Part shown: piece by piece, positions 25,289 to 44,784 of the stretch
How positions within the stretch are numbered: the stretch's first letter is position 1
Layout of the letters: every line of letters begins with the position of its first letter
Origin: Sulfuricurvum sp.
GTDB lineage: Bacteria > Campylobacterota > Campylobacteria > Campylobacterales > Sulfurimonadaceae
NCBI GenBank assembly: GCA_030694265.1
Contig: JAUXYP010000013.1
Coordinates: 62,001-126,000 of the forward strand
Length of the DNA: 64,000 bases
Reading direction: 5' to 3'
The notes under the pieces: model-generated
Seen by the model: the letters and a program-made list of their open reading frames with translations, nothing else
Databases searched by the model: none
What the model was told of the DNA's origin: nothing
Program-made: the position numbers and the translations under genes

Positions 25289-26851
25289 TTATTGCTTGGC
25301 CAGAGTGATACGGTTACGCCCCTGTTCTTTACTCTCATAAAGGGCATCATCGGCCTTTTTTATCAGTTCGTCTTGTGTTTCATGGTAAGTTGTACACCCT
25401 GAGATGCCCGCTGAGATGGTTATTGCAATCTTTTTATTGTTATAGAGGGTTATTGTATTTTCCATCTCCTTACGACAGATTTCCATTCGCTCATACGCCT
25501 GATCGGCCGGCATCCCTGGCATAACAATGATAAACTCTTCGCCTCCAAACCGGGCAATAAAATCATTTTGGCGAATTAAATTCAGAAGACATGTGGCTAT
25601 TTTTTTGAGCACTTCGTCTCCCGCGGCATGACCATAGGTATCATTGATGATTTTAAAGTGATCCAAATCGAGCATGACGATAGATAGGTCACTAAGTTCA
25701 CGAGACGCCCTTGCAATCTCTCTGGGGAGCGTTTCGTCTAAGTAGCGACGGTTGTAAACACCTGTGAGAGGATCGCGGATTGATTGTTCTTTGATGATGC
25801 GATTAAGTCGGTAGATGTATCCGGCAATGGCTCCAATGGTGGCAACGAGTCCCAAGGCAACGGCAAGAGAATAATAGAGCCATTGATTTTCTTGCAGCGT
25901 AGTTGGACTGCAGAAAAATCCTTTCGGGATGGCATTGGATGAGGCAAATCCTAGTGTATGGTATATTTCCGCAATTTTTTCCCATCGTTGAGGGTTCATG
26001 TGACCGATTTCAATTAACTCAGGTTCCATAAGATGACGGATGGCAGCGGCTTCGAAACGGAGATGCTCCCGTGTTTTGGCTTGCGAATAATCGCGTAAAA
26101 TAACATCAATCGTCTCTTCTGTGTGTGAGAGTGCATATGCCCACCCGCGTAGACTTGCTTCTCGAAATGCTTTGACCCGTTCGGGATGATTGGTGAGTTC
26201 TGCATCGCTGGTAAACAGACAGTCGCTGTAAAAATTTATACCGTATTTTCGGGGGTCGATGGTTGTGTATTCGATCCCTTTTTGTTGGAGGTAATAGGGC
26301 TCATTGGAAGAATAACCATTGTACGCATCTACTTTTCCATCAATCAAATCATCCGTGTTAAAGGTACTTTCAATAATGTTAAGCTTATTTAGATTGACAC
26401 CTTGATTGTGAAAGAGGGCCATAAGCTCCGCATTTTCAATACTTTTAGTCATCATCAGACGTTTTGAAGCCAACTGGGGAACGGTACTGATGTTGCTGTC
26501 TTTACGTACAATCCAGACATTGGGAGAATTTTGAAACAGTGCGGCCAGCACGACAACGGGTCGCCCATTTTGACGTTCATTGATAAGTCCAGAATTACCA
26601 ATACCGTATTGCGCACGCCCTGAAACTACTTCTTCTACGGTATGAGGGTGAGCGTCATCGACTTGCAAAATTCGGACGTGAAGTCCTGCATCGCGGTAAT
26701 AACCCTTGTATGCTGCCATATAATAACCGGCGAATTGGAACTGATGAAGCCATCGTAACTGAAGAGTGACCTCTTCTAGGGACTTAGAAAAAATAGAAGA
26801 GGGGAGTAAGAAGATTCCTAAAAGAAGGATTAAAATGTGTCTTTTATTCAT
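25289..26851 (-). CDS. NMT1/THI5-like periplasmic sensor fused to a GGDEF diguanylate cyclase
   Basis: After a signal sequence (residues 5-22), about 300 residues match the NMT1/THI5-like substrate-binding fold (VTLQLRWLHQFQFAGYYMA, EVVSGRAQYGIGNSG). A membrane helix at about 330-352 (LYYSLAVALGLVATIGAIAGYIY) leads to a GGDEF domain: GGEEF at 436-440 with an RQND inhibitory site five residues earlier. It should sense a small periplasmic ligand, perhaps thiamine-precursor-like or an organic amine, and make c-di-GMP. The 520-residue length fits both domains. The ligand is not known. Confidence 0.9.
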   Translation of the reverse strand: MNKRHILILLLGIFLLPSSIFSKSLEEVTLQLRWLHQFQFAGYYMAAYKGYYRDAGLHVRILQVDDAHPHTVEEVVSGRAQYGIGNSGLINERQNGRPVVVLAALFQNSPNVWIVRKDSNISTVPQLASKRLMMTKSIENAELMALFHNQGVNLNKLNIIESTFNTDDLIDGKVDAYNGYSSNEPYYLQQKGIEYTTIDPRKYGINFYSDCLFTSDAELTNHPERVKAFREASLRGWAYALSHTEETIDVILRDYSQAKTREHLRFEAAAIRHLMEPELIEIGHMNPQRWEKIAEIYHTLGFASSNAIPKGFFCSPTTLQENQWLYYSLAVALGLVATIGAIAGYIYRLNRIIKEQSIRDPLTGVYNRRYLDETLPREIARASRELSDLSIVMLDLDHFKIINDTYGHAAGDEVLKKIATCLLNLIRQNDFIARFGGEEFIIVMPGMPADQAYERMEICRKEMENTITLYNNKKIAITISAGISGCTTYHETQDELIKKADDALYESKEQGRNRITLAKQ

Positions 26852-27870: not shown

Positions 27871-28764
27871 ATGAAAAAACTCCTTATAACTTCGACTTTT
27901 TTATTGCTATTAGCCGGTGGATATGGAGTATGGAAAGCTTTTATCTCCCCTGGTACTTCTGAAATTCGTATTTCATCCAATCCATGGGTTGGATTTACTC
28001 CATTTATGTATGCGCAGGAAAAAGGGTGGCTGGAGGAGACGCCGTTTAAATTTATCTGGCTGGTTGATCTTTCTGACAATGCCCGGCTTTTTGATAAAGG
28101 ATTTGCTCAAGGTTTTACGGCAACACAATATGAGCTCATGCATTTTAAAAACAAAGAGGAGCTTACCACGGTTTTTTTAATCGATCAATCTTACGGGGCA
28201 GATGCGATTCTTTCAAACCGTTCACTGGAACAGCTGCGTAAAACAGATGAAAAAATTAATGTCTATCTCGAAATGGGGTCGCTAAATGAAGATTTGTTCA
28301 GCGCTTTTACGATCGAGTATGGGATGGATAAAAACGCATTTGTATTCATTGACAGTTCTCAAAAAAGTATGAGCAGCGTGAGGGAGACTTTAAAGCCTTT
28401 TATTATGATCACGTATGAGCCGTATGTTTCTCGGATGAAAGCTGCGGGGCTAAAGGTAATCGCATCGACGAAAACGCTCACAATGTTTCACGCTGTTGAT
28501 GCTTTATTCATTAAAAAAAGCTCGTTGGAAGAGCATCGCGATGACTACGTGCATCTGAAAAATATTTTCCAACGTGCTCAAGGACAATTGCGCACAAATC
28601 CAAGAGAATTTTATGAAACCATTGCCGGATATTTGGAGGGAGAATCGTATGAGGATTTTTTGAATAGCACCCATCAAATTCAATGGATTGGAAGCGATGT
28701 TCCCCAACATATTACGCAGACACTTAACAATCAGAACATTCCTACGGATGGATTGATTCGATGA
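27871..28764 (+). CDS. Periplasmic substrate-binding protein (NMT1/NitT-like) paired with a c-di-GMP enzyme
   Basis: This 297-residue protein has an N-terminal signal anchor (LLITSTFLLLLAGGYGVW) and a type II binding-protein fold: SSNPWVGFTPFMYAQEKGWLEE at the start and FSAFTIEYGMDKNAF in the middle resemble NitT/TauT/THI5 solute-binding proteins. No transporter genes are nearby; instead it overlaps the next gene, a membrane GGDEF-EAL protein, by 4 bases. It probably presents a ligand to that sensor. Confidence 0.72.
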   Translation: MKKLLITSTFLLLLAGGYGVWKAFISPGTSEIRISSNPWVGFTPFMYAQEKGWLEETPFKFIWLVDLSDNARLFDKGFAQGFTATQYELMHFKNKEELTTVFLIDQSYGADAILSNRSLEQLRKTDEKINVYLEMGSLNEDLFSAFTIEYGMDKNAFVFIDSSQKSMSSVRETLKPFIMITYEPYVSRMKAAGLKVIASTKTLTMFHAVDALFIKKSSLEEHRDDYVHLKNIFQRAQGQLRTNPREFYETIAGYLEGESYEDFLNSTHQIQWIGSDVPQHITQTLNNQNIPTDGLIR

Positions 28765-31229
28765 AAATTCATACTCTAGTATTTACGTCGGTTTTTCTTT
28801 TTCTCGCTGTTGTTGGGGTAATGTCTGCAGGATTTTATTCTTTTGAGCGCAAAGCGGTTTTAGGATACATGACCAATGGGATACAGCAGAGCGTTTTTCG
28901 TCTCGAAGAAGATATTAAAACAATTTTACAAGCTGAAGGACAAACGTATTATTTACAATCGGTGCTGGATCGGGCATCCGCGATAGAGTTAGCGATTCAA
29001 GAAGTGTCGATCTCATTGGATGGAAAAACAATCGCCTATTCGTCTCAACGTACACAAACGAACAAACCGGTTCCCAGAGAATATAATTTCATTAGACGTA
29101 TGAATAGTGAACTTGTAAGCACTAAAAGTGCGCGTTATAAAAGTGAATTTGAATATTTTGATGGAGAGCGTGCTCGTAAAGTGATGCTTTTCATAGACAT
29201 CGATCAGCAATATGTCTATGGAGAGCTCGATCGATTGGTATGGATGTTTGGAGCAGGTCTTTTTCTCCTGATGATTGCAATTGCGTCTTTGGCATCTTTT
29301 GTCGGGCAGCGCCTTTTTATCTATCCACTCAGTAAAATTGGACACATGGTGAAGATGAAGAATCAAGAGGCGGATCGCTATTTTATTCAAGAGTTTTCTG
29401 TCTTGAGTCAAACGATTGCAAGTACATTTCGAACCATGTGGGCACAAAATGAAGAGCTCAAAGAATCTTTGAATGAATCTCGTTATCTTGATGGAATATT
29501 GCGGATGGTTGCGGATGTTAATGGGTATCTCATATCCTCCCAAAATGTGAATGAGTTAAGCCAAAAATGTTGTGAGCGACTCAGTGCTCATGCGCAATAC
29601 GGTATTTGTTGGATAGGTATTATTGCGAACGATGAAATGGAAATTACAGGGTGTACCGATGAACCCGACAGATTGTTGTATCGGGGATTGAAAGTGAATC
29701 TGCAGCATTCAGAAGAATTGTTTGCGTATGCGCCAAGTATTCAGGCATACCAAGAAGACAGTATTATTAGTTTGAAACATTTGGAGAAGAATGAATCTCT
29801 TGCTGTGTGGAGTTTTCTAGCGCGCGAAGAAAATGACGGTTCCTTTATCGCATTGCCGCTTCGTGCTCGCCTAGGTGAGAAGCCTTTTGGTGTGTTAAGT
29901 TTGTATGGCTCTATGACTGAGGGATTCCTTCCCAAAGAGGTGCAGATGCTTGAGGAGCTTGCGGGAGATATAGGTTTCGCGATTCATTCGTACACGCAAC
30001 GAGATCAGCTCACTCACCATTTGCAAGTGGATGTTGTAACAGGATTGGCAAATCGTATGTCACTTATCGATGCGCTGAGTGATCAGGAAATGTGTGGGCT
30101 TGCGATCTTAAATATTGACCGATTTAGTGATATCAATGATGTTTATGGAGTAGCAATCGGAGATCAAGTACTTGCCGGATATGGGCATTGGTTGGCTAAA
30201 AAGCTAGAAAAAGTGTCTGGAATCGCATTGTATAAACTGGGAAGTGATGAATACGCACTGCTGTTTGATGAGAATGAAGAGACAGAAAATAGCATTTCCT
30301 TTTTGGAATATTTGATTGATAAAACGGCGGAAGAGTCTTTTATGATTGAGGGTATCGAAGTAATTTTGACCATCACGGTCGGATTTGACCCTAAATCGGC
30401 TAAAGTACTTGAAAATGCAACAAGAGCGCTTAAGCAAGCAAAATTGGAGCATAAAAGTTTGCTGATTTTTACCCCTGCAATGGGTGCAAAAAAAGAGCAG
30501 GAAAAAAATATAGAGTGGTACAAAGAGATCAAAGAAGCGCTTCAAGAGGATAGAATTGTCCCCTACTATCAGCCGATCGTGGATACTAAAACACATAAAA
30601 TAGTGAAATACGAGGCTCTGATTCGTTTGATAAAGAGTGATGGAGCCGTTGTCTCTCCCTTCCATTTTCTAGAGATTGCGCAAAAAATTCGTCTCTATTC
30701 GTCTTTGACAAAGGTGATGATTGATAAAGTTTTCGAGTGTTTTGAGGGATTGGGGATCAAAGTGAGTATCAATCTCTCCAACGAAGATATCGTTAATACA
30801 GAGCTCGCTGACTATCTTGAAGAGGCGATTGTTCAGAAGAAAATGGGACAGTTTGTAATTTTTGAAATTTTGGAAAGCGAAGGGATTACGAACTATGCAG
30901 AAGTAAGTGTATTTATCGAACGGTTCCGCTGTTTAGGGTGTTCGTTTGCCATTGATGATTTTGGTGCTGGGTACTCAAACTTTGATCACATTTTAAAGCT
31001 CAACATTGATACCCTAAAAATCGATGCTTCATTGATCAAAAATTTACCGCATGATCATAATTCCCAAATCATTGTTCGACATATCTGTGAATTTGCACGT
31101 GAGATGGGGATGAGTACTGTAGCCGAATTTGTTGCCAATGAAGCTATTTACCAAAAAGTACTCGAGCTTGGAATTGACACCTCACAAGGGTATTACTTTT
31201 ATGAACCAAGTGAGACCCTTCAGCACTAA
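28761..31229 (+). CDS. Membrane sensor with GAF, degenerate GGDEF and EAL domains (c-di-GMP phosphodiesterase)
   Basis: The 822-residue layout is: membrane helix at 5-24, periplasmic domain to about 155, helix to about 180, a coiled linker, a GAF domain (about 245-410), a GGDEF domain (about 425-560) and an EAL domain (about 585-815). The GGDEF motif is degraded to GSDEY near residue 493, so cyclase activity is unlikely. The EAL domain keeps EALIRL, NLSNEDI, DDFGAGYSNF and LKIDASLI, so c-di-GMP hydrolysis is expected. Its start overlaps the binding-protein gene. Confidence 0.9.
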   Translation: MKIHTLVFTSVFLFLAVVGVMSAGFYSFERKAVLGYMTNGIQQSVFRLEEDIKTILQAEGQTYYLQSVLDRASAIELAIQEVSISLDGKTIAYSSQRTQTNKPVPREYNFIRRMNSELVSTKSARYKSEFEYFDGERARKVMLFIDIDQQYVYGELDRLVWMFGAGLFLLMIAIASLASFVGQRLFIYPLSKIGHMVKMKNQEADRYFIQEFSVLSQTIASTFRTMWAQNEELKESLNESRYLDGILRMVADVNGYLISSQNVNELSQKCCERLSAHAQYGICWIGIIANDEMEITGCTDEPDRLLYRGLKVNLQHSEELFAYAPSIQAYQEDSIISLKHLEKNESLAVWSFLAREENDGSFIALPLRARLGEKPFGVLSLYGSMTEGFLPKEVQMLEELAGDIGFAIHSYTQRDQLTHHLQVDVVTGLANRMSLIDALSDQEMCGLAILNIDRFSDINDVYGVAIGDQVLAGYGHWLAKKLEKVSGIALYKLGSDEYALLFDENEETENSISFLEYLIDKTAEESFMIEGIEVILTITVGFDPKSAKVLENATRALKQAKLEHKSLLIFTPAMGAKKEQEKNIEWYKEIKEALQEDRIVPYYQPIVDTKTHKIVKYEALIRLIKSDGAVVSPFHFLEIAQKIRLYSSLTKVMIDKVFECFEGLGIKVSINLSNEDIVNTELADYLEEAIVQKKMGQFVIFEILESEGITNYAEVSVFIERFRCLGCSFAIDDFGAGYSNFDHILKLNIDTLKIDASLIKNLPHDHNSQIIVRHICEFAREMGMSTVAEFVANEAIYQKVLELGIDTSQGYYFYEPSETLQH

Positions 31230-31368: not shown

Positions 31369-31797
31369 ATGGCAAGAACGGATGATGCACCCAATACAGA
31401 AGGGCTTACCTTTTTAGATGACGGTGAAATGCTTTATGATGATTTATATTTATTGTCCGAAACGGATGAAAAAGGGATTATTACTTATGTGAGTGATTCC
31501 TTCGCAAAAGTTGCTGGATGGAAAGCAGAAGACCTTTTGGGTCAGCCGCATAACTGCGTTCGTCACCCTGACATGCCACGCGCTGCATTCCGATCACTAT
31601 GGGACGATGTTCAGGCAAAAGGTTTTTGGACGGGATTTGTTAAAAATGCTCGTAGAGGCGGGGGACATTACTGGGTTTATGCCACTGTTTTGCGCTCAAC
31701 TGACAAAAATGGAAATGTGAAATATGTATCCATTCGTATCAAACCATCACGTGAAGATATCAAAAAAGCAGAAGCGCTCTACGCGACACTGGACTAA
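31369..31797 (+). CDS. Aer/CetB-type PAS domain protein (probable FAD redox sensor)
   Basis: This 142-residue protein is a single PAS domain closely resembling the Aer N-terminus: GQPHNCVRHPDMPRAAF, then KGFWTGFVKN and GGHYWVYATV. The Aer residues needed for FAD (Arg-His-x-Asp and a downstream Trp) are present as R65, H66, D68 and W87. It has no membrane segment and no signalling domain. The chemoreceptor starts 9 bases later, so sensor and signaller are separate proteins, as in the C. jejuni CetB/CetA pair. Likely input: cellular redox or electron transport state. Confidence 0.88.
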   Translation: MARTDDAPNTEGLTFLDDGEMLYDDLYLLSETDEKGIITYVSDSFAKVAGWKAEDLLGQPHNCVRHPDMPRAAFRSLWDDVQAKGFWTGFVKNARRGGGHYWVYATVLRSTDKNGNVKYVSIRIKPSREDIKKAEALYATLD

Positions 31798-31806
31798 GGG
31801 GAAATT

Positions 31807-33690
31807 ATGGCACTAGTAAGACGAACAGAGCATGCGCCAGCAGCAGTAGGAAGCGTTAGCCCAGATAAAAGACGTCAGCGTACGCTGGCAAAACAGCAGC
31901 AAATATCAGAGAGTATTGCCGGTGTGGCGACAACTATTTTGGGTAATGCGCAAGAGAGTGTCAGTGCGATAGAGGAGCTCAAAAGCTCGATGGAACAAAT
32001 CGCGACAGCGGCAGAAGAAAATAGCGGTGCAAGTGAGCAAGCGCTTAAAAACGTACGTGCTATCAACGCCAATATCGGGCGTATGACGACCAGCATTGAT
32101 ACGGTTATCTCCTCAACACTGGTTACGGGTGATAATATTATGGGCGCGGTTGGAACGATCAATACTTCGGTTGCGCGTATGTCACAAGCGGTAAATGTCG
32201 CTAAAACCTCTTCTACCAAATCCGAAGAGCTCAAAATTTCTTCTGAAAACATCGGTGAAGCGGTAGGCTTTATTGCTAAAATTGCTGATCAAACCAATCT
32301 TTTAGCGCTTAATGCCGCCATCGAAGCCAGTCGTGCAAAAGAACATGGCAAAGGGTTCGCCGTCGTTGCGGATGAGACCCGTGCACTTGCAGGTGAGTCT
32401 GAAAAAAATGCCGATTTCATTTCTAACTTGGTCAATAAAATCCAAGAAAGTATAGATAACATTATCAAAAGTATTACAAGCACGACGGGTATTATTGAGC
32501 AAACAGGCGGGCGCGGATCGGCGTTGAGCTTTAAAATGGAAGAGCTCACAAAAATCGCGGTTTACTCTGTAGAAGCAGCACGTAATATGAGCAGTTATAC
32601 TCAAAGCCTCGGGCACTCCGTTGTGCAAATCAATGATGGGTCAAAAGAGATTGCAGATGCTTCAAGCGAAATTGCAAAATCAGTTGAACGAACCCTTAAC
32701 AGTATTGAAATGCAGTCCAATTCATTGGTTCAAACCGAAGAAGATATAAAAGAACTTAATAACCTCTCTGAAGAGCTTAAGTTCTCAACGGACACGATGA
32801 AGTCAGCAGAAGAGATTGCAGCATCTGCCGACGCGATAAGTTCCAGTATGGACGATATCCAAAACTCACTCAAAGAAGTGACCAACGGATTGAATCAAAT
32901 CGAAGCCTCTTCTCAAGCAACCAACCAAAGCGCGATTCTGAACAAAGAGCTGTTTGAAAGTGGACTTTCTGCATCCAAAGACATCAGTAAACTCATCGAA
33001 ATTGCACGTCGTAACTTCGATTTGCTTAAGACGTCGTTTGCGGATGTCAAAGGGCAGATGAATGGAATCAGTAATGATTTTGCCAATTCAATGGCCGAGG
33101 GGAGCAGTGCAAGCAGTGAGCTTGATGTTATCGTCAAAGAGACGCGTAACGTTGACAAAACGGTTGGCAGTATCTCTAACAGTATTATTCAACTTAATAT
33201 GTTGGCGATCAGCGGCTCCATTGAAGCCGCTCGTGCAGGTGATTTTGGAAAAGGATTTGCCGTAGTTAGTGCGGATATCCGTAACTTGGCCAAAGATTCT
33301 GAGTCCAACACTGAGAAGATCAATGATACGATCGAATCAATGAATGCAGAGATTGATACCGTTCGTACGGATTGGCTTAAACTGTTGATTAATCAAGAAG
33401 GCGAAAAAGAGCAAATCGGAACCTTGATCCATGAGATTGATAAAATCACAACCATGCTGATTGACTTACTTGATCGCTTTACGGGTCTTAAAACGATTAA
33501 TGACCAAAATATCGAAGGGCTTAACCAAGGGCTTATTGGTATCAGTGAGATTCAAAAAGCGGTTGAGCTTTCAGCCCGTAATGCACAGGAATCTCGCAAA
33601 GCAAGTGAACTGATTATTGAAACGGTCAGCCATATTGGCGAAGGCGTTGAAGAACTAGCTGTCATGGCAGATGAACTTCAACAGGGGTAA
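31807..33690 (+). CDS. Soluble methyl-accepting chemotaxis protein with two signalling tips
   Basis: The 627-residue protein has no hydrophobic segment, so it is cytoplasmic. It is nearly all predicted coiled coil. A classic receptor hairpin tip lies at about 155-197 ([19 protein letters not shown], then [15 protein letters not shown]) and a second at about 457-499 ([17 protein letters not shown], then [15 protein letters not shown]). Each could bind CheA and CheW. No separate ligand-binding domain is visible; the PAS protein upstream is the probable input. Its C-terminus lacks an obvious CheR-tethering pentapeptide. Confidence 0.92.
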
Positions 33691-33694
33691 CTCG

Positions 33695-35071
33695 ATGCTT
33701 ATCGAAGAAATTTTGATTATTCGCCATAATGAGGTTTCGTTTGGCATTTCTACTGCGTTGATCGGTCAAATTCTTCGTGTTCCGGATATTACCAGTTTGG
33801 CATTGAGTCCGTATGAAGTACGCGGCTTATGTGCGGTAGGCGGCGGGATTGTTACGTTATTGGATTTTAACCTTTTATTAGGACTAAAGCCTTGCAGCGG
33901 ATCAGATCAGGGAAACCGGGTTATCACGCTGAACGATGAGATGAGTGCATTGGCGCTGCTCGTGGATGAAGTAACGGTTTCTCTCACGATTGATCAAGGA
34001 AAAATCGAGTATTTAGATGTTATGGATGAGGCGATTATCGCGATTGTTCATCATGAAGATACGCTGATTCAGGTTGTCAGTCTAGAGTATGTGATTGCAG
34101 CGATTCGCTCTGTAAAGGTACCCGCTCAAGCGGTGTCAGAAAAAAGCAGATATGACACCGAAGCATCTACGCAAGCGGAAGATAAAAGTCGTTATCTTGT
34201 TTTTAAAATGGGCTTAGAAGAATATGCTCTCCCGATTGATGACCTGAGAGAGATTTTGAATGCGGACGTTACCATTACGGCGATGGCGGGTTCAAATGAT
34301 GAGATTATCGGCATGATGTCTTTGCGCGAAGAACTCGTTGTTATCGCTGATTTACGCCGTTTTTACGGTTTTGAACCCAAATCAGGGGAAAAAAATCGTA
34401 TTATGATTGTTCAGATGCACAACAAAACATTGGGATTGATGATTGATGAGATTGTGGATATTCATGAATTTTCCAAAAATGATTTGGATTCACTGGGCGG
34501 AAGTAATGATGATAAACGTATTGCCGGCGTGATACACAATGGAGATAAACTTATCTCTCTGATTTCAAACAACGCGATTGAATCTTTGTTAGAGCGAAAC
34601 AATGATATTGTCGTTTCGAATGATGTTACTGCAGTGAGTGAAAATGTGGTGCAGATGGTCGAAGTAGTGATTTTTAAACTCGGGAATGAAGAGTATGCGT
34701 TTAGCATCGAAGAGGTTGCGGAGATCATTGATATGACCCCTGTCACTCCTGTGGCGAATGCCGCTGAAATGGTAGATGGAATCATTAACATACGAGGGCA
34801 GATTGTCACGATCGGTTCTTTGCACAAACGCTTGGGAATAAATATTCCTACGCATGGGGATCAGAAGATTATTATTTGTCATGCGCCAAAGGGACGGATC
34901 GGATTTTTTGTGAATACCGTGAGCGATGTTATTTCGATTAATCCGGCACAGATGAGAGAAGAAGAGAGTGCAGATGGGCTTTTCTCAAATATTATTTATT
35001 TAGATGAAGGTAAACGGTTGGTTTTACTGTTTAAACGCAATATCTCACAACTGCTGGAAGGCGTTGCATGA
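33695..35071 (+). CDS. Adaptor with three CheW domains
   Basis: CheW domains bridge receptors and CheA. This 458-residue protein has three in a row, at about 1-145, 165-300 and 320-455, each with the VxG/IxxIRG-type turn (GLCAVGGGIVTLLDF, GMMSLREELVVIADLR, GIINIRGQIVTIGSL). The start is ATG 33695 with AGGGG just upstream; an ATG at 33671 lies inside the receptor gene. A multivalent adaptor suits a receptor with two tips. The gene overlaps cheB by 4 bases. Confidence 0.93.
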   Translation: MLIEEILIIRHNEVSFGISTALIGQILRVPDITSLALSPYEVRGLCAVGGGIVTLLDFNLLLGLKPCSGSDQGNRVITLNDEMSALALLVDEVTVSLTIDQGKIEYLDVMDEAIIAIVHHEDTLIQVVSLEYVIAAIRSVKVPAQAVSEKSRYDTEASTQAEDKSRYLVFKMGLEEYALPIDDLREILNADVTITAMAGSNDEIIGMMSLREELVVIADLRRFYGFEPKSGEKNRIMIVQMHNKTLGLMIDEIVDIHEFSKNDLDSLGGSNDDKRIAGVIHNGDKLISLISNNAIESLLERNNDIVVSNDVTAVSENVVQMVEVVIFKLGNEEYAFSIEEVAEIIDMTPVTPVANAAEMVDGIINIRGQIVTIGSLHKRLGINIPTHGDQKIIICHAPKGRIGFFVNTVSDVISINPAQMREEESADGLFSNIIYLDEGKRLVLLFKRNISQLLEGVA

Positions 35072-36126
35072 AAAGAATGCTTATAGCAGATGATTCGGCA
35101 TTGGTTAGAAAGCAAATAACGGAGATTGTAGCCGAGCTTGGATTTGAGATTGATACGGCGCGTAATGGTGCCGAAGCGGTTGAAAAAGCAACTGCGAGTC
35201 AATACGATGTTATTACGATGGACATTAATATGCCGATTATGGATGGCCTTACCGCCGTACGTAAGATTATGGAGATACGTCCAACACCGATTCTGATGAT
35301 TAGTTCTTTGACGACTGAGAGCGCTAAAATTACAATGGAAGCACTCGATGCAGGTGCTGTTGATTATATCTCAAAACCCGGAACAATGAATGTGGGGCGC
35401 AGTGAAAATTCAGAGGATATTGTCCAAAAAGTAAAGTCTCTCAGCCGTATTCCGCCGCGACGTTTGAAAACGATTACACGCCGTAGTGTTGTGCGTGAGC
35501 GTCCGCAAAGCGTTCGGGAAGCAGCCCGTATAGAAAATAAATCGACGGCTGATGTCACCAAAATAGTATTGATCGGTGCATCGACGGGTGGACCTGGGCT
35601 TATCGAACAGATTTGCACGGCATTGCCGGCTACATTCGGCTATGCCGTCTGCATTGTTCAGCACATGCCTGAACAGTTCACTGCAGCATTCGCGACTCGA
35701 TTAGACAAAAACAGTACCTTACCGGTTATAGAAGCTAAAGATCACATGGAACTTTATCCTGGTAATATTTATCTCGCACGTGGCGGGGTTCACATGCACT
35801 TTGGTAAAAAGGTGACAGGAAGAATTGTCATCCGTGAGGAGAAAAATAAAGGAAGCCGTTTTTTTCAACCCAGTGTTGATGAGATGTTTATGAGTGCGCT
35901 CAAAGTATTTTCAGGCGATCAGATTATAGGGGTTTTATTAACCGGGATAGGAGATGACGGTGCTGCCGGTATGGTTGCCATCAAGCAAGCAGGGGGATTC
36001 ACCATTGGTGAGAGTGAAGAGACGGCAACGGTTTATGGAATGCCAAAAGAAGCATACGATCGTGGGGGAGTGTCTCAACAGCTCCCTTTTCCTAAGATTG
36101 TAAGAGCGCTTCAAACATTACGCTAA
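35068..36126 (+). CDS. cheB: CheB receptor methylesterase/glutamine deamidase response regulator
   Basis: CheB removes receptor methyl groups when phosphorylated by CheA. Receiver domain: D52 in TMDINMPIMDG. Methylesterase domain: catalytic S172 in GASTGGPG, histidine in VQHMPEQF and aspartate in GIGDDGAAGM. Length, 352, is full. Many H. pylori and C. jejuni strains lack CheB or its receiver, so a complete copy shows a full adaptation system. Confidence 0.96.
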   Translation: MKRMLIADDSALVRKQITEIVAELGFEIDTARNGAEAVEKATASQYDVITMDINMPIMDGLTAVRKIMEIRPTPILMISSLTTESAKITMEALDAGAVDYISKPGTMNVGRSENSEDIVQKVKSLSRIPPRRLKTITRRSVVRERPQSVREAARIENKSTADVTKIVLIGASTGGPGLIEQICTALPATFGYAVCIVQHMPEQFTAAFATRLDKNSTLPVIEAKDHMELYPGNIYLARGGVHMHFGKKVTGRIVIREEKNKGSRFFQPSVDEMFMSALKVFSGDQIIGVLLTGIGDDGAAGMVAIKQAGGFTIGESEETATVYGMPKEAYDRGGVSQQLPFPKIVRALQTLR

Positions 36127-36136
36127 GGATTTAGGC

Positions 36137-36763
36137 ATGGCACTGGTAAAAACACACACACAGCAGGTTGTCGAAGAACTTCCACAATTTTCAACACTTG
36201 AAGAAGCCGTAGACTATTATCATGCTAATGATGGAAAATTTGATGAGCAAGGCTATGCAATAGAGCAAATCGAAATGTTCGAGGGCGGCGGAGAAGAATT
36301 AGTTAAACTTTTGATAGATAACCCGTACGTGCATAAAGATATGGCAAGTAAAATCGCTTCCACTCTTGCTAAAATGGATGGAAGCCGTGCCCCCATCGAG
36401 TCGATTATGGGTTTGCTCAAAGTACGTAATGCGTATATTCGAAATCTTGGGATCACAACGCTTCAAAATTATGGTGATGCGATCAAATATTACATTGTGA
36501 AATTTCTTATTGGGGATGATCGTGATTTACGTATTTTTGCGATTAATGTTTTAGGCGATGTTAATTTTTCTCAATCACGTGATATGCTCATCGAACTTCT
36601 CGAAAAAGAGACCGATATCAATGTTGCAATGACGGCTGTGGATTATATGGCTGAGATTGGCGAAGTAGAGGATATTCCATTGCTCGAAACGGTCAAAAGC
36701 AGATTTCAGGATGCGTACGTTGATTTTGCGATTGATAACGCCATTCGCAGTATTCGGGGGTAG
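36137..36763 (+). CDS. HEAT-like repeat protein between cheB and cheR
   Basis: This 208-residue protein has helical repeats with the HEAT/PBS-lyase pattern (AYIRNLGITTLQNYG, LRIFAINVLGDVNF, NVAMTAVDYMAEIGEVEDI). No catalytic motif is visible. The N-terminal 60 residues are acidic. HEAT proteins in other chemosensory clusters act as scaffolds or methylation helpers; that is an analogy. It is 10 bases after cheB and 3 before cheR, so a role in adaptation or array assembly is likely. Confidence 0.72.
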   Translation: MALVKTHTQQVVEELPQFSTLEEAVDYYHANDGKFDEQGYAIEQIEMFEGGGEELVKLLIDNPYVHKDMASKIASTLAKMDGSRAPIESIMGLLKVRNAYIRNLGITTLQNYGDAIKYYIVKFLIGDDRDLRIFAINVLGDVNFSQSRDMLIELLEKETDINVAMTAVDYMAEIGEVEDIPLLETVKSRFQDAYVDFAIDNAIRSIRG

Positions 36764-36766
36764 GTA

Positions 36767-37597
36767 GTGGAGGCTCTTTTGTCCGAAGAAAATTTCTATA
36801 AGATGACCGACTACATTTATCGTAAAACGGGGATTTATTTGGAATTGGACAAGCATTTTGATAAGCTTTCCAAGTACATAGAAGCACGCTGTAAAGTGAT
36901 TGGTGCGGATTCCTTCCGGAAGTATTTTTACACTTTACGTTTTGATGATAAAGACGGTGCAGAGTTTCAAGCGCTTGTAAATGGGATGACCGTCAATGAA
37001 ACCTATTTTTACCGTGAGAAAGAGCAGTTTGAGGTGTTGGTTGACCGAATCTTGCCAGAACTGCATCAGATAAAGCCAAAAGGGCAGCCTTTACGGATTT
37101 TATCCGCTCCAAGCTCTACGGGAGAAGAACCGTATTCGATGATATTGCATATTCTCGAAGAAGCGCGTATTGTTGATGAACGTGATATTGAAGTTGTCGG
37201 TATTGACATTGACAGTACGGTGATTGAAAAAGCAAAATTGGGTAAATACTCAGATCGTGCAGTTCATGCGATACCGCCTGGTGCGTTGGCGAAGTATTTT
37301 AAAAAACGTCCATTGGGTTACGATTTAATCGATGATCTGATCGGAACTGTAGACTTTAAATTGGCCAATATTTTTGATAGGGGAGATATGCGTAAACTGG
37401 GAAAATTCGATGTTATTTTTTCACGCAATATGCTGATCTATTTTGATGATGCCAGCCGAAAAGAAGTTGCAATGACCTTTTACGATATGCTTAATCCCGG
37501 TGGTTATGTCTTGTTAGGTCATGCTGAATATATGAGCCGTATCACTTCCGTATTTAAGGCCAAAAAAATCGATTCCACGTTAATTTATCAAAAATAA
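36767..37597 (+). CDS. cheR: CheR receptor methyltransferase
   Basis: CheR methylates receptor glutamates with SAM. The 276-residue protein has the N-terminal helical domain (VNETYFYREKEQFEVL) and the SAM domain with LSAPSSTGEEPYSM, VGIDIDSTVIEKA and FSRNMLIYFD. The start is GTG 36767 following GGGGGTAGGTA. It pairs with cheB for methylation-based adaptation. Confidence 0.95.
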   Translation: MEALLSEENFYKMTDYIYRKTGIYLELDKHFDKLSKYIEARCKVIGADSFRKYFYTLRFDDKDGAEFQALVNGMTVNETYFYREKEQFEVLVDRILPELHQIKPKGQPLRILSAPSSTGEEPYSMILHILEEARIVDERDIEVVGIDIDSTVIEKAKLGKYSDRAVHAIPPGALAKYFKKRPLGYDLIDDLIGTVDFKLANIFDRGDMRKLGKFDVIFSRNMLIYFDDASRKEVAMTFYDMLNPGGYVLLGHAEYMSRITSVFKAKKIDSTLIYQK

Positions 37598-37618: not shown

Positions 37619-37990
37619 ATGCCATTAGTAATATTTGTAGACGACAGCGAGACCGCTTTAGCATCCACTCGGATGGTTACGGACTCAATGCCGATTACGG
37701 TCAAGCAATATTTGTCCGCAGTTGACGCACTCAATGAGATCAAGGGGGGAATGGTCCCGGATTTGATCATTACGGATATGAATATGCCCGTCATGAATGG
37801 TTTTGAGTTTTTACAGGGGCTTCGGGCGGTGCCAAGTACGGCACGGACTCCTGTGTTGATGCTGACAACGGAAACGCGCGATGAGCTTAAAGTGCAGGGA
37901 AAAGCGCTTGGACTGACGGGTTGGGTGGTGAAGCCCTTTAATCCGGCGCAGCTCAAGCAGGCAATTTCTAGAGTATTGCGTCTAGCATAA
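37619..37990 (+). CDS. Single-domain response regulator (CheY-like)
   Basis: This 123-residue receiver domain has D53 in ITDMNMPVMNG, the acidic pair at VDDS and lysine in VVKPFNP. No output domain follows. It lies directly before the CheZ-like gene and is the likely phosphate sink or output regulator of this cluster. Confidence 0.92.
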   Translation: MPLVIFVDDSETALASTRMVTDSMPITVKQYLSAVDALNEIKGGMVPDLIITDMNMPVMNGFEFLQGLRAVPSTARTPVLMLTTETRDELKVQGKALGLTGWVVKPFNPAQLKQAISRVLRLA

Positions 37991-37999
37991 GTTAAAAAG

Positions 38000-38392
38000 A
38001 TGCAATTTCTACATACCCTCAACGGACTACTAGAACATGTTAAAACAGTAGAGCGCGAGACCATTGATTTAACAAAAGAAGCGCAGTTGCGATTTGTTCG
38101 GTTCCTTGATAAAAATGCTTTAAGCGTAGACGACGAAACGCTCGAAGCGATGCAGTATCAAGATATTATTGCACAGCAGTTAAGTGCAACCATAGAGGCC
38201 ATTGAAAGCGCACAGGAGCATATGCAGTATTTTTTGCATGCGTTTAGCGAAGATGATGCGATTGCAGCTCAAAGCATTGAAAAAATGCACGGAAAATTGA
38301 CGAGTGCGCTTGAAAAAGCAAAAGAAAAACACAGTGCATTTAGCGGAAAAGTGAATCGTGAAGACGATGATGACGGAATAGAGTTTTTTTAG
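38000..38392 (+). CDS. Short CheZ-like phosphatase candidate
   Basis: This 130-residue, mostly helical protein contains MQYQDIIAQQL. Its Asp-x3-Gln spacing matches the CheZ active helix (D143 and Q147 in E. coli). The C-terminus DDDDGIEFF is acidic then aromatic, like the CheY-docking tail of CheZ. It lies between two CheY genes. Sequence outside these spots is not clearly CheZ, so the assignment is an inference from motif, tail and neighbours. Confidence 0.66.
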   Translation: MQFLHTLNGLLEHVKTVERETIDLTKEAQLRFVRFLDKNALSVDDETLEAMQYQDIIAQQLSATIEAIESAQEHMQYFLHAFSEDDAIAAQSIEKMHGKLTSALEKAKEKHSAFSGKVNREDDDDGIEFF

Positions 38393-38401
38393 GAGCATAA
38401 G

Positions 38402-38767
38402 ATGGCAACAGTAATGGTAGTAGACGATTCAAAAACAGTGCGGAGTTATCACGGCTCTATTCTCAAAGATTTGGGTGTGGAAGTACTTGAAGCAGAAAAT
38501 GGGATGGAAGCGCTTGAAAAATCGTTGGATAATAACGTGGATTTATATCTTGTGGATGTGAACATGCCGGTTATGGACGGTTACTCGTTTGTGAGTGAAT
38601 TACGTAAACAGCCTGCGCGCCGTTTTACCCCTGTGATTATGATCACAACGCAAATGGAAGCAACCGATAAGCTTGAAGCATTCAAAGTAGGTGCCAATCT
38701 TTTCGAAACCAAACCTATCAAGCCGGATGCTCTTAAAGGGTATCTGCAGCTCTTGTTAAAAGTTTAA
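38402..38767 (+). CDS. CheY-like response regulator
   Basis: This 121-residue receiver has D52 in LVDVNMPVMDG, VVDDSK at the N-terminus and lysine in FETKPIKP. It is 14 bases before cheA and is a probable direct target of it. Whether it binds the flagellar motor cannot be read from the sequence. Confidence 0.93.
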   Translation: MATVMVVDDSKTVRSYHGSILKDLGVEVLEAENGMEALEKSLDNNVDLYLVDVNMPVMDGYSFVSELRKQPARRFTPVIMITTQMEATDKLEAFKVGANLFETKPIKPDALKGYLQLLLKV

Positions 38768-38781
38768 CTCAAGGACAACTT

Positions 38782-41532
38782 ATGAATCCGCTACTCGAAC
38801 AATTTTTATTGGAAGCCAGAGAGAATTTGGCGTTTATTGATCAAAACATTGAAAATATCGGAGGAGACGATCCTGAGTTGTTAAACTCCGTTTTTCGCGC
38901 TGCACATACCCTCAAAGGTGGCTCCGGAATTGTAGGGTTTGATAGCGTGAAACGGATTACTCATCATGCCGAAGATTTATTGGACATGTTGCGTTCGGGA
39001 AAACTTGAATTTAGACCCGTCATGGTCGAATCATTGTTTAATGCATTTGATGAGGTGGTTAATCTTGTTGAAGCTGCCGAAGAGTGCGGTGATATTGTAG
39101 AAGCGGATGAATCACGTATTGATCAGATTGCCGAAGAGCTCAGTGGATTAATGGGTAAAACGATTGAAGTGCAAACATGGTCGTGTCCGTTTAGATTGGC
39201 AAGGGATGTTGAACGTGTTATTAATATTCCGATGCCATTTTTACGACAGTTTTGGCAAACGATTGTGTTTAAGGCGGGTGAGATTGATGAAGAATTTTGT
39301 GCCAAAGAACAATTATATGCGATTGTGCTTGATTTGGATGAATCGTGTATGGTATATGGAAATGATCCGCTCTATACCCTCTCTCTCCTGGGGGATAAAG
39401 TTTTAGGAATTCACTCATGTATGAATGAGAATGCGGCAAAAGCACTTTTATCCGGGTTTGATGATTCGGATGGGTTACTGCTTCGTTTGAGTATGACGGC
39501 GTTTGTGTATGCGACCTATGAAGAGATCAGCGATGCCATGTTTAATTTCGTCGATGAGCTTACCTTTGTTCCGCTTGATATTGTGACGTTGCTACAGATC
39601 AATGAGGGTGAATCTGGTCACGTATTGGATGTTTTGAAAGAACTTTCAACTGAGTGTAGCAGTGCTATTGATTCACTCAACCGTTTTGCAATCAGTGAAA
39701 AGATTAATAATACGTTGCCGTTAATTGGGCGAGATACACTTCAAAGTACACAGCTACGGCGTTTGGATGAGGTACTCAATACGATTAGAGATACAGATTT
39801 GGGTTCTTTAAAATCATTTTTCGCACAGTTGCCTCAGGGGAATGTGTATGTGTATAATGCCTTGAATGATAATGTTCCTGCTGTAGAGGCCGTGAATGTG
39901 CCAGATGCAGTCTGCGAACCGATGGTAATAAATGAAGTAGAGCGCATACAGCTTAAGGCGATTTTGATGCAACAGCTTCAAACATTGGAAATGGTGGATG
40001 ATGACGCTGCAAAAGAACGCGTATTGTCCATTTTAGAAAATAATCTTAAACCGTACATTTGCGATATGCCAAGCAGCTTTGACTCTAAAGAAGCCCTGAT
40101 GGAGTGGTTGCGCTGTGAGATAAGCGGCGAACAGAAAGAAGCCGTCCAAGAGCCGGTAGCAGTACCTGAGATCGCTGTTGTTGAAACACCGATTGTGATT
40201 GCAGCAGAACCTGAAGTGAAGTCCTACAGCCAGCCTGTTGCGGTTGTTTCTGAAGTAATGCCTGTGGCCTCAAGCGCAGTCGAACGAGCTGATTTAGACA
40301 ATCAGGTAAGCGGCAGTAAAAAGGGAGTTATCGGCAAAACGGTCAAAGTCGATCAAGAGTCGATTGATCATTTGATGAACGTTGTTGGTGAGCTTTTGGT
40401 AGCTAAAAATTCCCTTCCGTATTTGGCGGATGGGGTGCATAAAATGACGGGTGAAGGGATCAAACGTGCTATTATGGAAAAATATACGTTTATCAACCGT
40501 CTAGCAGAGCAATTACAAGATTTGATTATGTCTATGCGGATGCTTCCGATTTCCTATGTCTTTGACCGTTATCCAAAATTGGTACGTGATATTTCTAAAA
40601 ATATGAATAAAAAAGTGACATTGAGTATGGACGGTGGCGAAACCAAGCTCGATAAAAACATGATCGAAATGTTGGCTGATCCGATGATACATATTATGCG
40701 TAACTCTTTGGATCACGGGATAGAAATGCCGGATGTCCGTATTCAAAAAGGGAAAAATCCGGAAGGGCATATAACGCTTAACGCCTATGCTCAATCGGAT
40801 AAAATTATCATTGAAATACGCGATGACGGTGCGGGAATTAATATTGATCGTGTGGTTCAAAAGGTACTGGAAAAAGAGTTGCTAACGCTTGAACAAGTAG
40901 AAGCGATGAATGATGATGAAAAAGCGGCATTGGTCATGCTTCCAGGCCTCTCAACGGCAGAGACAATCAGCGAATACAGCGGTCGCGGTGTCGGGATGGA
41001 CGTTGTGCGCAAATCGATCGAGGGATTTGGCGGAACCATCCGTATCAAGACCATACCGAATCAAGGGACGACGATTTATCTCTCTATCCCGGTATCGCTC
41101 GCGGTTACTTCCTTGCTTCATGTTACTATGAGCGGGGTTCATTATGGATTCCCGATGGATTCGGTTTCAGAAACGGTAAAAATCGAATCTACTCAAATCG
41201 AGTATTTGCAAAACGAGCCATTTATTTATCTACGTGGCGAAGTCATTCCGTTGCTTTTTGCGAAGAACATGCTGGATGAAGAGGCGCTGAAGAATAAAGC
41301 GCTTCCAGTGGTGGTGTTGAGTATCAAAGGAAACCTTCTTGCTGTCGTCGTCAATGAGTTGTTGGGACAATTGGATGTGGTTCAAAAACCACTTGAGGGG
41401 ATTATGGAAGGTCACCCTATTTTCAGTGGTACTGCATTGCTGGGTAATGGTCAAATCATTATGGCGATTGATCCAATAGGAATTTTAGGGATATCGACGG
41501 TACTCAAAAGCGATCATCGTATCGCTAGTTAA
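38782..41532 (+). CDS. cheA: Chemotaxis histidine kinase CheA
   Basis: The 916-residue kinase has an N-terminal Hpt domain (H42 in FRAAHTLKGGSG), a long middle part at about 130-500 without a clear known domain, the dimerisation segment from about 513 (TVKVDQESIDHLMNVVGELL), the ATPase domain with DPMIHIMRNSLDHGIE near 632, DDGAGIN near 681 and GRGVGMDVV near 733, and a C-terminal CheW-like domain from about 771. No receiver is attached. It is about 250 residues longer than E. coli CheA. Confidence 0.96.
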   Translation: MNPLLEQFLLEARENLAFIDQNIENIGGDDPELLNSVFRAAHTLKGGSGIVGFDSVKRITHHAEDLLDMLRSGKLEFRPVMVESLFNAFDEVVNLVEAAEECGDIVEADESRIDQIAEELSGLMGKTIEVQTWSCPFRLARDVERVINIPMPFLRQFWQTIVFKAGEIDEEFCAKEQLYAIVLDLDESCMVYGNDPLYTLSLLGDKVLGIHSCMNENAAKALLSGFDDSDGLLLRLSMTAFVYATYEEISDAMFNFVDELTFVPLDIVTLLQINEGESGHVLDVLKELSTECSSAIDSLNRFAISEKINNTLPLIGRDTLQSTQLRRLDEVLNTIRDTDLGSLKSFFAQLPQGNVYVYNALNDNVPAVEAVNVPDAVCEPMVINEVERIQLKAILMQQLQTLEMVDDDAAKERVLSILENNLKPYICDMPSSFDSKEALMEWLRCEISGEQKEAVQEPVAVPEIAVVETPIVIAAEPEVKSYSQPVAVVSEVMPVASSAVERADLDNQVSGSKKGVIGKTVKVDQESIDHLMNVVGELLVAKNSLPYLADGVHKMTGEGIKRAIMEKYTFINRLAEQLQDLIMSMRMLPISYVFDRYPKLVRDISKNMNKKVTLSMDGGETKLDKNMIEMLADPMIHIMRNSLDHGIEMPDVRIQKGKNPEGHITLNAYAQSDKIIIEIRDDGAGINIDRVVQKVLEKELLTLEQVEAMNDDEKAALVMLPGLSTAETISEYSGRGVGMDVVRKSIEGFGGTIRIKTIPNQGTTIYLSIPVSLAVTSLLHVTMSGVHYGFPMDSVSETVKIESTQIEYLQNEPFIYLRGEVIPLLFAKNMLDEEALKNKALPVVVLSIKGNLLAVVVNELLGQLDVVQKPLEGIMEGHPIFSGTALLGNGQIIMAIDPIGILGISTVLKSDHRIAS

Positions 41533-41546
41533 GTAAAGGAATTAAG

Positions 41547-41981
41547 ATGGAAGATTATATTATCTTTACTGTAGGTGATAACTATTATGCTTTGAGTGTT
41601 GCATCCATACAGAGGATTATTCAAGTTCCCTCTGTTACGGCTATTCCCAATGCACACTCTATGGTTGAGGGGATGATGTCCTATGAAAATCGTGTGATCA
41701 AAGTAGTGAATTTTCGCGCAATGATGGGTATGGAGAGTTTTGAAGAGAGTGCGACAAGCAAGTCTCAAAAACTGCTTATTTATCAAACGCAAAACGCGTT
41801 TTTCGGTATCAAAGTGGATCAGATAGAAGATATTAAAAATCTCGATTGCTCAACACTTAAACACGTTGATAGACTCGAAGCAAATGCAAATTTTGTGGAA
41901 ATAAACGGGGTAGTTGAAGTGGATGGTCGGCTTGTAAACGTTATTAAATCGGTAACATTACCGATGAAGGAGAAAGTATAA
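41547..41981 (+). CDS. cheW: CheW adaptor (first of a pair)
   Basis: This 144-residue single CheW domain has YIIFTVGDNYYALSV at the start and AIPNAHSMVEGMMSYENRVIKVVNF in the core. It overlaps the STAS-like gene by one base and closely resembles the CheW at 42267, so the two are recent duplicates. Confidence 0.92.
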   Translation: MEDYIIFTVGDNYYALSVASIQRIIQVPSVTAIPNAHSMVEGMMSYENRVIKVVNFRAMMGMESFEESATSKSQKLLIYQTQNAFFGIKVDQIEDIKNLDCSTLKHVDRLEANANFVEINGVVEVDGRLVNVIKSVTLPMKEKV

Positions 41982-42266: not shown

Positions 42267-42695
42267 GTGAGCGACTTTATTATTTTCACTGTCAATGAAG
42301 CTCATTACGCATTGGATGTGACGAACATAGAACGTATAGATCAAGTTCCATTGCTGACCCCTATTCCAAACGCCCACTCTTTCGTGGATGGGATAATGAT
42401 GTATCAAGACAATACCCTCAAAGTAATCAATTTTCGGAAAATGACGAATGCACCTGGAGAAGAGCCGGCATTGAGTTCTCAGAAGCTTCTGATTTATCGA
42501 GATAAAAAGGGACTTTTTGCTATAAAAGTAGATACGATTAAAGACATTACGGCGTTTGACGCGTCCAGCATTAAACCGTACGCCCATTGCGTTACCGTAG
42601 GGCAGTATTTGCTCACACGCGGCGTCGTTGAGTACAAACAGTCGTTAGCCGTTGTTATAGAGTCAGTAGAACTTCCACACGATGAGGCGGCATGA
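42267..42695 (+). CDS. cheW: CheW adaptor (second of a pair)
   Basis: This 142-residue CheW domain begins FIIFTVNEAHYALDV and shares PIPNAHSFVDGIM with the gene at 41547. The start is GTG 42267 after TAGGGAG. It overlaps the parA-like gene by 4 bases. Confidence 0.9.
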   Translation: MSDFIIFTVNEAHYALDVTNIERIDQVPLLTPIPNAHSFVDGIMMYQDNTLKVINFRKMTNAPGEEPALSSQKLLIYRDKKGLFAIKVDTIKDITAFDASSIKPYAHCVTVGQYLLTRGVVEYKQSLAVVIESVELPHDEAA

Positions 42696-43435
42696 AAACA
42701 ATCGTCGTTTCGAATCGTAAAGGCGGATCGGCCAAGACGACTACTGCTGTGAATCTCGCCTGCGAATTGGCAAAAATCGGATCGGTGCTCTTGATCGATT
42801 TTGATACCCAAGGACACGCTTCGCTTGGAGTGGGTTGCGAAGCTTCTGAGGATAATGGAGCGCATTCGATTTTTGTAGGTAAAACGCTCAGCGAGACGTT
42901 TGTTCACACGGTACACGATCAGCTTACCCTTTCTCCTGCGCAAGAGTTTTTTGATGTCTATGAGTTTGGAGATTTGCGCGGAGTACTCAAAAATCGTTTT
43001 CGCCGCGAGATGATCCATGATTTTTTTGATTACGTGATTATTGACACTCCTCCAACATTTGATGGGTTACTTAAAAATGCGCTTGAAGTCGCCGATGCTG
43101 TTGTGATCCCATTCGTCCCGCATCATCTAGGAGTGGTTGCGGTGGGACAAATGGTACGTGCTATCTATCAAAATGCTTCACTCAACAGTCAAAAAACGCC
43201 CGAAGTGGGAATTTTACCCGTGATGGTCAATGCCCACATACCTGAACATCGTGAAGCCATAGCCAAGATTAGAACCCAGTTTGGTGAAGAAAAACTTTTT
43301 TCGGGAATAGGGATTGATATCAAGCTGGCCAAACAGTTTGAGGGAGGAAACCCGGTTGTTTTGGATGAGGAACGTTCCCGTGGAGTGAAGGATTATCGGC
43401 ATTTTGTGGAAGAGCTTTTGGCTCGATTATGTTAA
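42692..43435 (+). CDS. ParA-family ATPase, probable array positioning protein
   Basis: This 247-residue protein has the deviant Walker A motif KGGSAKTTT, the Walker B region LLIDFDTQGHAS and IIDTPPTFDGLL. ParA-type ATPases move cargo over the nucleoid or to poles. No parB gene accompanies it; the neighbours are chemosensory. Known relatives in this setting are PpfA of Rhodobacter, which segregates cytoplasmic receptor clusters, and ParC of Vibrio. The same role is inferred here for the soluble receptor array. Confidence 0.85.
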   Translation: MKTIVVSNRKGGSAKTTTAVNLACELAKIGSVLLIDFDTQGHASLGVGCEASEDNGAHSIFVGKTLSETFVHTVHDQLTLSPAQEFFDVYEFGDLRGVLKNRFRREMIHDFFDYVIIDTPPTFDGLLKNALEVADAVVIPFVPHHLGVVAVGQMVRAIYQNASLNSQKTPEVGILPVMVNAHIPEHREAIAKIRTQFGEEKLFSGIGIDIKLAKQFEGGNPVVLDEERSRGVKDYRHFVEELLARLC

Positions 43436-43458
43436 ATGTATAGAAATGGATTTTGATT

Positions 43459-44784
43459 ATGAAAAAAATACTGATTGTTGATGACAATGAAAATAATCGA
43501 ATGCTCTTGCGGGCACTTTTGGAAGAATACGCTGAAGATAACACGATAAAACTGAGTATACATGAAGCGGTCAATGGATTGGAAGCCTCATTGATTGTAC
43601 AAGACGAGCATTTTCATCTTATCTTTATGGATATCATGATGCCGGAGATGGATGGAATCGAAGCGACTAAACGTATACGTGCGCAGGATGCTAAAACCAT
43701 GATTGTAGCAGTATCTGGGGTGGATGATGGTGACCGTCAGCAGCAGATACTGCGAAACGGTGCAGAGGACTATATCTCTAAACCAATCAATGCAGATGTT
43801 TTTTTGACACGCTTGAGCAATTATTTATCTTTGATTGAGTCACGGGACACATTGACAAAAAAGTTCAATCCAAGCGCTGCAAATTTATTTACACAAGAAA
43901 CATTTAGCCGTAAACTGCTCTTTTATCTGCAAAATGATGATGAACTTGCTGAATTTTGGGAATATTATCTTCTCAATTCAAATGAGCGCTGTGAAAAGTT
44001 AAGTGACGCAATACGAACTGTGTACGCTCTGGGATCTATTGGATTAAAATTAGGCGTAAAATTGCAGATTGTCGTCGAGGAATCTATTGAGAAAATGTTT
44101 ATCACCCTTGGAGGATTAAACGAAATTGATGCCAAGATTGTCAAATTGATTCTGGCTAAAAATCCAACTGTAACGGATTACAAAATAAGAGATGATAAAA
44201 TCAGTATTCGACTGCAGCGTCCCAGCATTAAGCCATTGGTTACGCTTGCTGATGAACAGATCGCCACGACAGTGAATGTGACTTCTGCTTATGCGGCTGC
44301 TGCTGCAAGCTATGAAGCGGTTGTGCAAACAACACAGGTATACGATTATATGGATCCCGAAGATTTGATGGATCTAAAAGAATACGTCGCTAAACTCAAT
44401 TCGCTCATGATGGTTGTAGGTGGAGAGATTGAATATCATGAGGTGAATGAGATTAGTGATAGTCTTCAGAATATCAGTCGAATCTCAAGAGGGTATACGG
44501 ACAGTTACTCAATCGGACAAGCGTTGAGTTCTATGGGATATGCCATTACGAATCATAGGGAACTTTTTATGGCGAAGTCCGATGATCTTGCACCGATGTG
44601 CACAGCATTCGGACGTGATTTGAGAAACTGGCTACAGCTGATTTTCGTAGAGGGTGCCACCAGTGTTCATTATATGGATGATACCATTATTGCCAATGCC
44701 CAAATGATTGAGAGCATTTTGACGATGGAAGATGCGGATCATAGTAGCGCGGCTGAAAATTTGGATGATATTTTTGATTTTTAG
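43459..44784 (+). CDS. Response regulator with a large unrecognised C-terminal domain
   Basis: A receiver domain (residues 1-125; D58 in FMDIMMPEMDG, lysine in YISKPINA) is followed by about 315 residues that I cannot assign: helical segments, an alanine-rich stretch near 280 (SAYAAAAASYEA), and the tail ENLDDIFDF. No DNA-binding, GGDEF or kinase motif is visible. The tail resembles the acidic-aromatic CheY-docking end of CheZ. The start ATG 43459 is preferred over TTG 43453. It is probably a system-specific output. Confidence 0.78.
   Translation: MKKILIVDDNENNRMLLRALLEEYAEDNTIKLSIHEAVNGLEASLIVQDEHFHLIFMDIMMPEMDGIEATKRIRAQDAKTMIVAVSGVDDGDRQQQILRNGAEDYISKPINADVFLTRLSNYLSLIESRDTLTKKFNPSAANLFTQETFSRKLLFYLQNDDELAEFWEYYLLNSNERCEKLSDAIRTVYALGSIGLKLGVKLQIVVEESIEKMFITLGGLNEIDAKIVKLILAKNPTVTDYKIRDDKISIRLQRPSIKPLVTLADEQIATTVNVTSAYAAAAASYEAVVQTTQVYDYMDPEDLMDLKEYVAKLNSLMMVVGGEIEYHEVNEISDSLQNISRISRGYTDSYSIGQALSSMGYAITNHRELFMAKSDDLAPMCTAFGRDLRNWLQLIFVEGATSVHYMDDTIIANAQMIESILTMEDADHSSAAENLDDIFDF

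Follow-up and report, generated by a model that had tools for sequence, protein, structure and literature searches.

A two-tipped cytoplasmic chemoreceptor of the DosM type in Sulfuricurvum, its F9 operon and an adjoining PAS gene as candidate redox input

The two-tipped receptor and its operon

The window, a stretch of 64,000 nucleotides from Sulfuricurvum sp., contains a chemotaxis operon in which all genes described here lie on the forward (+) strand. The receptor gene dosM (31807..33690, +) starts with ATG and encodes a cytoplasmic double-signalling-domain chemoreceptor of 627 amino acids, as shown by the list of open reading frames, Pfam, a genome search and an AlphaFold2 model. MCPsignal was the sole Pfam family matched by the product, in three stretches totalling 172 bits, and no ligand or sensor domain was matched; in the genome-wide search the frame gave two separate MCPsignal matches above the cutoff, of 105 and 63.9 bits. 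The top 19-residue hydropathy is only 1.14, and DosM therefore has no membrane helix. Alignment of homologues places tip 1 at residues 155-197 (core Q162-E190; 32269..32397, +) and tip 2 exactly 300 residues further on, at residues 455-497 (core Q462-D490; 33169..33297, +). At this offset the two halves repeat each other without gaps: identity in the self-comparison is maximal at offset 300 (35/160) and at most 19 at the other offsets from 297 to 303, a BLASTP comparison of the halves yields E=1.9e-13, and not even one tip motif was found in any of 20,000 shuffles of DosM. The canonical methylation-site pattern had no match in DosM, and adaptation sites are therefore not claimed. A sequence-only reading of this DNA had described two signalling tips in this frame, with neither membrane helix nor ligand domain, and had proposed an alignment of both halves; the domain matches, the repeat, the tip motifs and the hydropathy bear this description out, its spacing of 302 residues being a small miscount. 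That reading was silent on the operon and on the PAS gene 9 bp upstream.

The AlphaFold2 monomer of DosM, computed from 47 aligned homologues with a mean pLDDT of 88.9 and a pTM of 0.60, is all-helical, with helices at residues 19-176, 182-324 and 330-626. Structure prediction, also suggested earlier, gave a turn at tip 1 (residues 177-181) but no clean break at tip 2, where no helix break is drawn and confidence is lowered. The mid-helix break between the tips (residues 325-329; 32779..32793, +) would be the joint of the two signalling domains. Most structures that Foldseek matched to the model were long coiled coils, and the sensible ones were chemoreceptors of T. maritima and E. coli; the match to 2ch7 covered 304 columns with an rmsd of 4.6, and the first half of DosM also matches MCP structures by sequence.

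Next to dosM lies cheW3 (33671..35071, +), an F9 marker with three concatenated CheW domains (Pfam, three CheW stretches), followed by cheB (35068..36126, +; Pfam), a HEAT-repeat protein gene kept in other F9 operons (36137..36763, +; Pfam and other F9 loci) and cheR (36767..37597, +; Pfam). A cheY encoding a receiver domain only (37619..37990, +; list of open reading frames and related loci) and a second cheY (38402..38767, +; related loci) enclose a small open reading frame (38000..38392, +), and the F9 cheA (38782..41532, +; Hpt, H-kinase_dim, HATPase_c and CheW in Pfam) precedes two single-domain cheW genes (41547..41981 and 42267..42695, both +; Pfam). The operon continues with a ParA-type ATPase gene (42692..43435, +), which may serve array positioning, and is closed by a receiver-domain protein gene (43453..44784, +; related loci). 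ParA also occurs in other F9 loci, namely those of Methylobacterium and Methylosinus. The ParA-type ATPase beside the host chemotaxis genes resembles the situation at the TlpT/TlpC cluster of R. sphaeroides, a two-layered cytoplasmic array, where the ParA-type ATPase PpfA goes with the chemotaxis genes; the R. sphaeroides cytoplasmic cluster consists of single-tip soluble receptors, not of DosM.

In PMC9321776 the signature of the F9 class is given as a double-tip receptor plus a triple CheW, and since both adjoin here, the open reading frame at 31807-33690 was assigned as the DosM of F9. The host F9 set is complete, its own CheA included. The host genome holds four CheA-type kinases, and one of its contigs (C11) has an apparent cheV-cheA-cheW arrangement, an F3 marker that is said to be exclusive to Campylobacterota and by which the host would most likely be a member of this phylum.

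The 130-residue product of 38000..38392 matched no family in Pfam or NCBIfam. A core of QYQDI.[AS]QQL and a C-terminus of IEFF are invariant in five relatives, which is reminiscent of CheZ, and by this motif the frame is a candidate CheZ-like phosphatase, which may act on CheY in F9 systems and have escaped recognition. Directly upstream of the operon, 25289-26851 and 27871-31229 hold substrate-binding-like (NMT1-type) proteins beside GGDEF/EAL c-di-GMP enzymes.

Gene order, tip spacing and the proposed double baseplate

The order dosM-cheW3-cheB-HEAT-cheR-cheY-cheA is common to annotated plasmids of Sphaerotilus, Methylobacterium, Methylosinus, Azospirillum and Eleftheria. It recurs in most of the 80 F9 loci found by scanning a genome collection with a tip-2 profile, none of them from Vibrio, and the operons of four relatives (L182-L185) follow the host order. 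In the host family, 67 of the 200 sampled genomes bear dosM. The V. cholerae DosM (VC1403, cluster I/F9; Briegel et al. 2016, PMC7534058) is likewise cytoplasmic with two signalling domains, and its gene cluster also encodes a triple CheW and a CheA; the host operon differs from the described cluster in the PAS gene before dosM, the two single CheWs after cheA and the CheZ-like frame between the cheY genes. Within Campylobacterota, partial F9 sets are described for Nitratiruptor and Nautilia (PMC9321776); they share dosM, cheW3 and cheBR with the host but lack cheA and cheY, unlike the complete host set.

DosM is homologous along its length to other DosM proteins, with equal spacing between the tips, at an identity of about 30-33% to proteobacterial DosM; its identity to the DosMs resembling the partial sets (L157-L163) is about 27-29%. 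The spacing of 300 residues was found in all 36 host-family DosM loci measured and in 80 of the 85 loci outside the phylum, the remainder being cut, split or missed by the pattern; the spacings come from loci matching the tip pattern, which the remote DosM-like L155 and L157-L163 do not. Outside the phylum the 300-residue spacing extends to alpha-, beta-, gamma- and Desulfo-type bacteria and to Acidobacteria.

A two-tipped receptor is in itself of a known kind. As reported in PMC7534058, cryo-tomography shows V. cholerae DosM as a rod with a signalling domain at each end that spans both baseplates, and PMC9321776 describes F9 arrays as two-layered cytoplasmic arrays stabilised by DosM. The host frame is, with a probability of about 0.9, the DosM of a complete F9 system bridging two baseplates. 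That one chain could bridge two CheA/CheW layers was the core idea of the sequence-only reading, and it stands, though already published for the DosM family; the other partner which that reading suggested for tip 2 does not, as discussed below. The DosM chain would run from tip 1 through the long helix to tip 2, and its N- and C-terminal arms of about 175 and 150 residues would turn back and meet around mid-length, so that a straight rod whose two ends each carry a tip for CheA/CheW is expected for the dimer. In the cytoplasm, these rods would hold two facing baseplates, made of CheW3, CheA and single CheWs, a set distance apart, and the 300-residue spacing would act as the ruler between them in an array presumably assembled in the host as well.

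The constancy of the spacing over several phyla makes for a firm prediction of array thickness. At 300 residues, a straight helix is computed to be about 45 nm long, more than the baseplate distance of 35 nm in V. cholerae (PMC3964821); the first figure follows from the host spacing, the second from V. cholerae arrays. Half of the inter-tip distance, 150 residues, equals about 21.4 heptads, against 22 in the 44H receptor type of the F9 class.

A PAS gene linked to dosM and its proposed role

The gene on the upstream side of dosM, 9 bp away (31369..31797, +), encodes a stand-alone Aer/CetB-type PAS protein of 142 amino acids, which from its Aer PAS match and its linkage is proposed to be an FAD-binding sensor subunit. 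A plausible ribosome-binding site precedes each of the two genes, which are probably co-transcribed. The PAS protein has a match of E=1.5e-30 to 8dik, a structure of the E. coli Aer PAS, and the equivalents of R57/H58/D60 and the FWTG tryptophan are largely kept; in Aer, the Arg-His-x-Asp residues bind FAD (PMC2628428). In the host genome, at least four further genes for CetB-like PAS-only proteins adjoin MCP genes, and the dosM-linked PAS proteins form their own clade with 0.999 support.

Linkage to dosM was exclusive in the host family. The PAS gene lies directly upstream of dosM in 30/30 inspected loci and in 4/4 longer ones. With an orthologue threshold of at least 211 bits in 200 family genomes, while no paralogue in the host genome scores above 125 bits, the orthologue was present in 65 of the 67 DosM-bearing genomes and in 0/133 of those without dosM. 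Both exceptions are truncated contigs, one with a 168-residue DosM fragment (G155) and one with dosM 220 bp from the contig end (G190). Directly upstream of dosM no such gene was found in the 85 F9 loci outside the phylum, and the more remote DosM loci within it (L174-L181) yielded none either. The linkage is apparently new, with no mention in those parts of the F9 literature that were covered. In one relative (locus L013, genome G086) the dosM-linked PAS gene is split into two overlapping open reading frames while dosM is intact.

CetB/CetA of C. jejuni is an established bipartite PAS/MCP receptor in which the PAS protein is the sensor half, and in M. gryphiswaldense CetB2 and CetA2 interact and CetB2 uses FAD. 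The host locus resembles these pairs (C. jejuni CetA/CetB and Magnetospirillum CetA2/CetB2) in having a PAS-only protein with Aer-type FAD residues beside an MCP. CetA is membrane-bound and has a HAMP domain and a single tip, whereas DosM is soluble, lacks transmembrane helices and HAMP, and has two tips. The lack of HAMP, the proposed CetB contact in CetA, is the main weakness of the PAS step; DosM is therefore not a CetA, and the pair is only proposed to work like CetA/CetB. The PAS protein could also be a redundant CetB for another receptor, a reading countered by its linkage to dosM.

The F9 kinase of V. cholerae has no known phenotype under standard conditions (PMC7534058). A PAS gene exclusive to and abutting dosM is a specific candidate for the input of F9 arrays. 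The sensorless DosM would most likely receive its signal at least partly from the adjoining FAD-PAS protein; bound to the rod at a distance from the tips, this protein would inform the F9 CheA of the redox or respiratory state. The odds that the PAS protein is the redox input to DosM and the F9 CheA are put at about even. An FAD-PAS protein on the DosM rod controlling both baseplates of a sandwich array at once, and thus a bipartite redox receptor of a new layout, is an evenly balanced proposition. If true, the F9 arrays of the host family would have a built-in redox input. Residues 61-80, 241-260 and 581-600 of DosM show excess conservation in the PAS-bearing family, which may hint at PAS docking and may equally mark an adaptation region, and these stretches were not counted as evidence.

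A tentative alternative, of appreciable though lower probability, is that DosM is purely structural, that all sensing is done by other soluble receptors sharing its trimers, such as a CZB-domain MCP, and that the PAS protein has its role in another process. In V. cholerae, every second trimer is taken by DosM and a further cytoplasmic receptor is required (PMC7534058), and sensor domains are absent from 98% of DosM proteins (PMC9321776). The host itself has two MCP frames without transmembrane helices, of 500 (L008) and 388 (L056) amino acids, with a CZB-like motif at the end as judged by eye. A merely structural DosM fits poorly with a PAS orthologue that abuts dosM and never occurs in the family genomes lacking it; further, most other host MCPs checked have near-identical tips to one another and are therefore suggested to belong to the F3 array, not to F9.

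The second signalling tip and variant dosM loci

In the alignment of 47 homologues, D161-I172 and G181-A188 of tip 1 are invariant. Tip 2 has a signature of its own, with M465 in 46/47 and G470, D490, I491, R492 and N493 in 47/47 proteins, and is conserved as strongly as tip 1 across phyla, at a pairwise identity of 0.95-0.97 per tip window. The invariant E173, R176 and G181-K-G-F of tip 1 recur in tip 2 as E473, R476 and G481-K-G-F.

It was earlier suggested that the deviating second tip may bind a different partner, which found no support, as its differences are invariant or nearly so in the 47 DosM proteins. Being common to all these, they give no hint of a partner specific to this organism. 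In a wider form, with tip 1 binding CheA/CheW3 and tip 2 for instance the extra single-domain CheWs in an asymmetric array, the idea draws on the family-wide signature of tip 2 and on the two extra single CheWs of the host operon; it is judged unlikely, since the same signature occurs in organisms without those CheWs in their F9 operons, both tips have the E/R/GKGF positions in common and, in V. cholerae, DosM is set with both ends in CheA/CheW baseplates (PMC7534058). Very improbable is a single functional hairpin with the other tip as a decayed duplicate, for although tip 2 scores lower against MCPsignal and the AlphaFold2 monomer lacks a clean break there, it is no less conserved across phyla than tip 1 and the 300-residue spacing is fixed.

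Variant loci were also observed. In two of them, from Chromatium okenii LaCa and a Comamonadaceae MAG (L104 and L122), dosM appears as two consecutive open reading frames, each partial, by frameshift or as a real split. Two genomes (G224 and G231; loci L158, L159, L162 and L163) each carry two different dosM-like genes with about 28-29% identity to the host DosM, and a Burkholderiales MAG (L134) has two F9 clusters back to back on opposite strands. In a distant relative (L174, G323) cheA lies upstream of dosM, and a CheW with a CZB zinc-binding domain (L174:11817-12629) follows dosM in place of the triple CheW.
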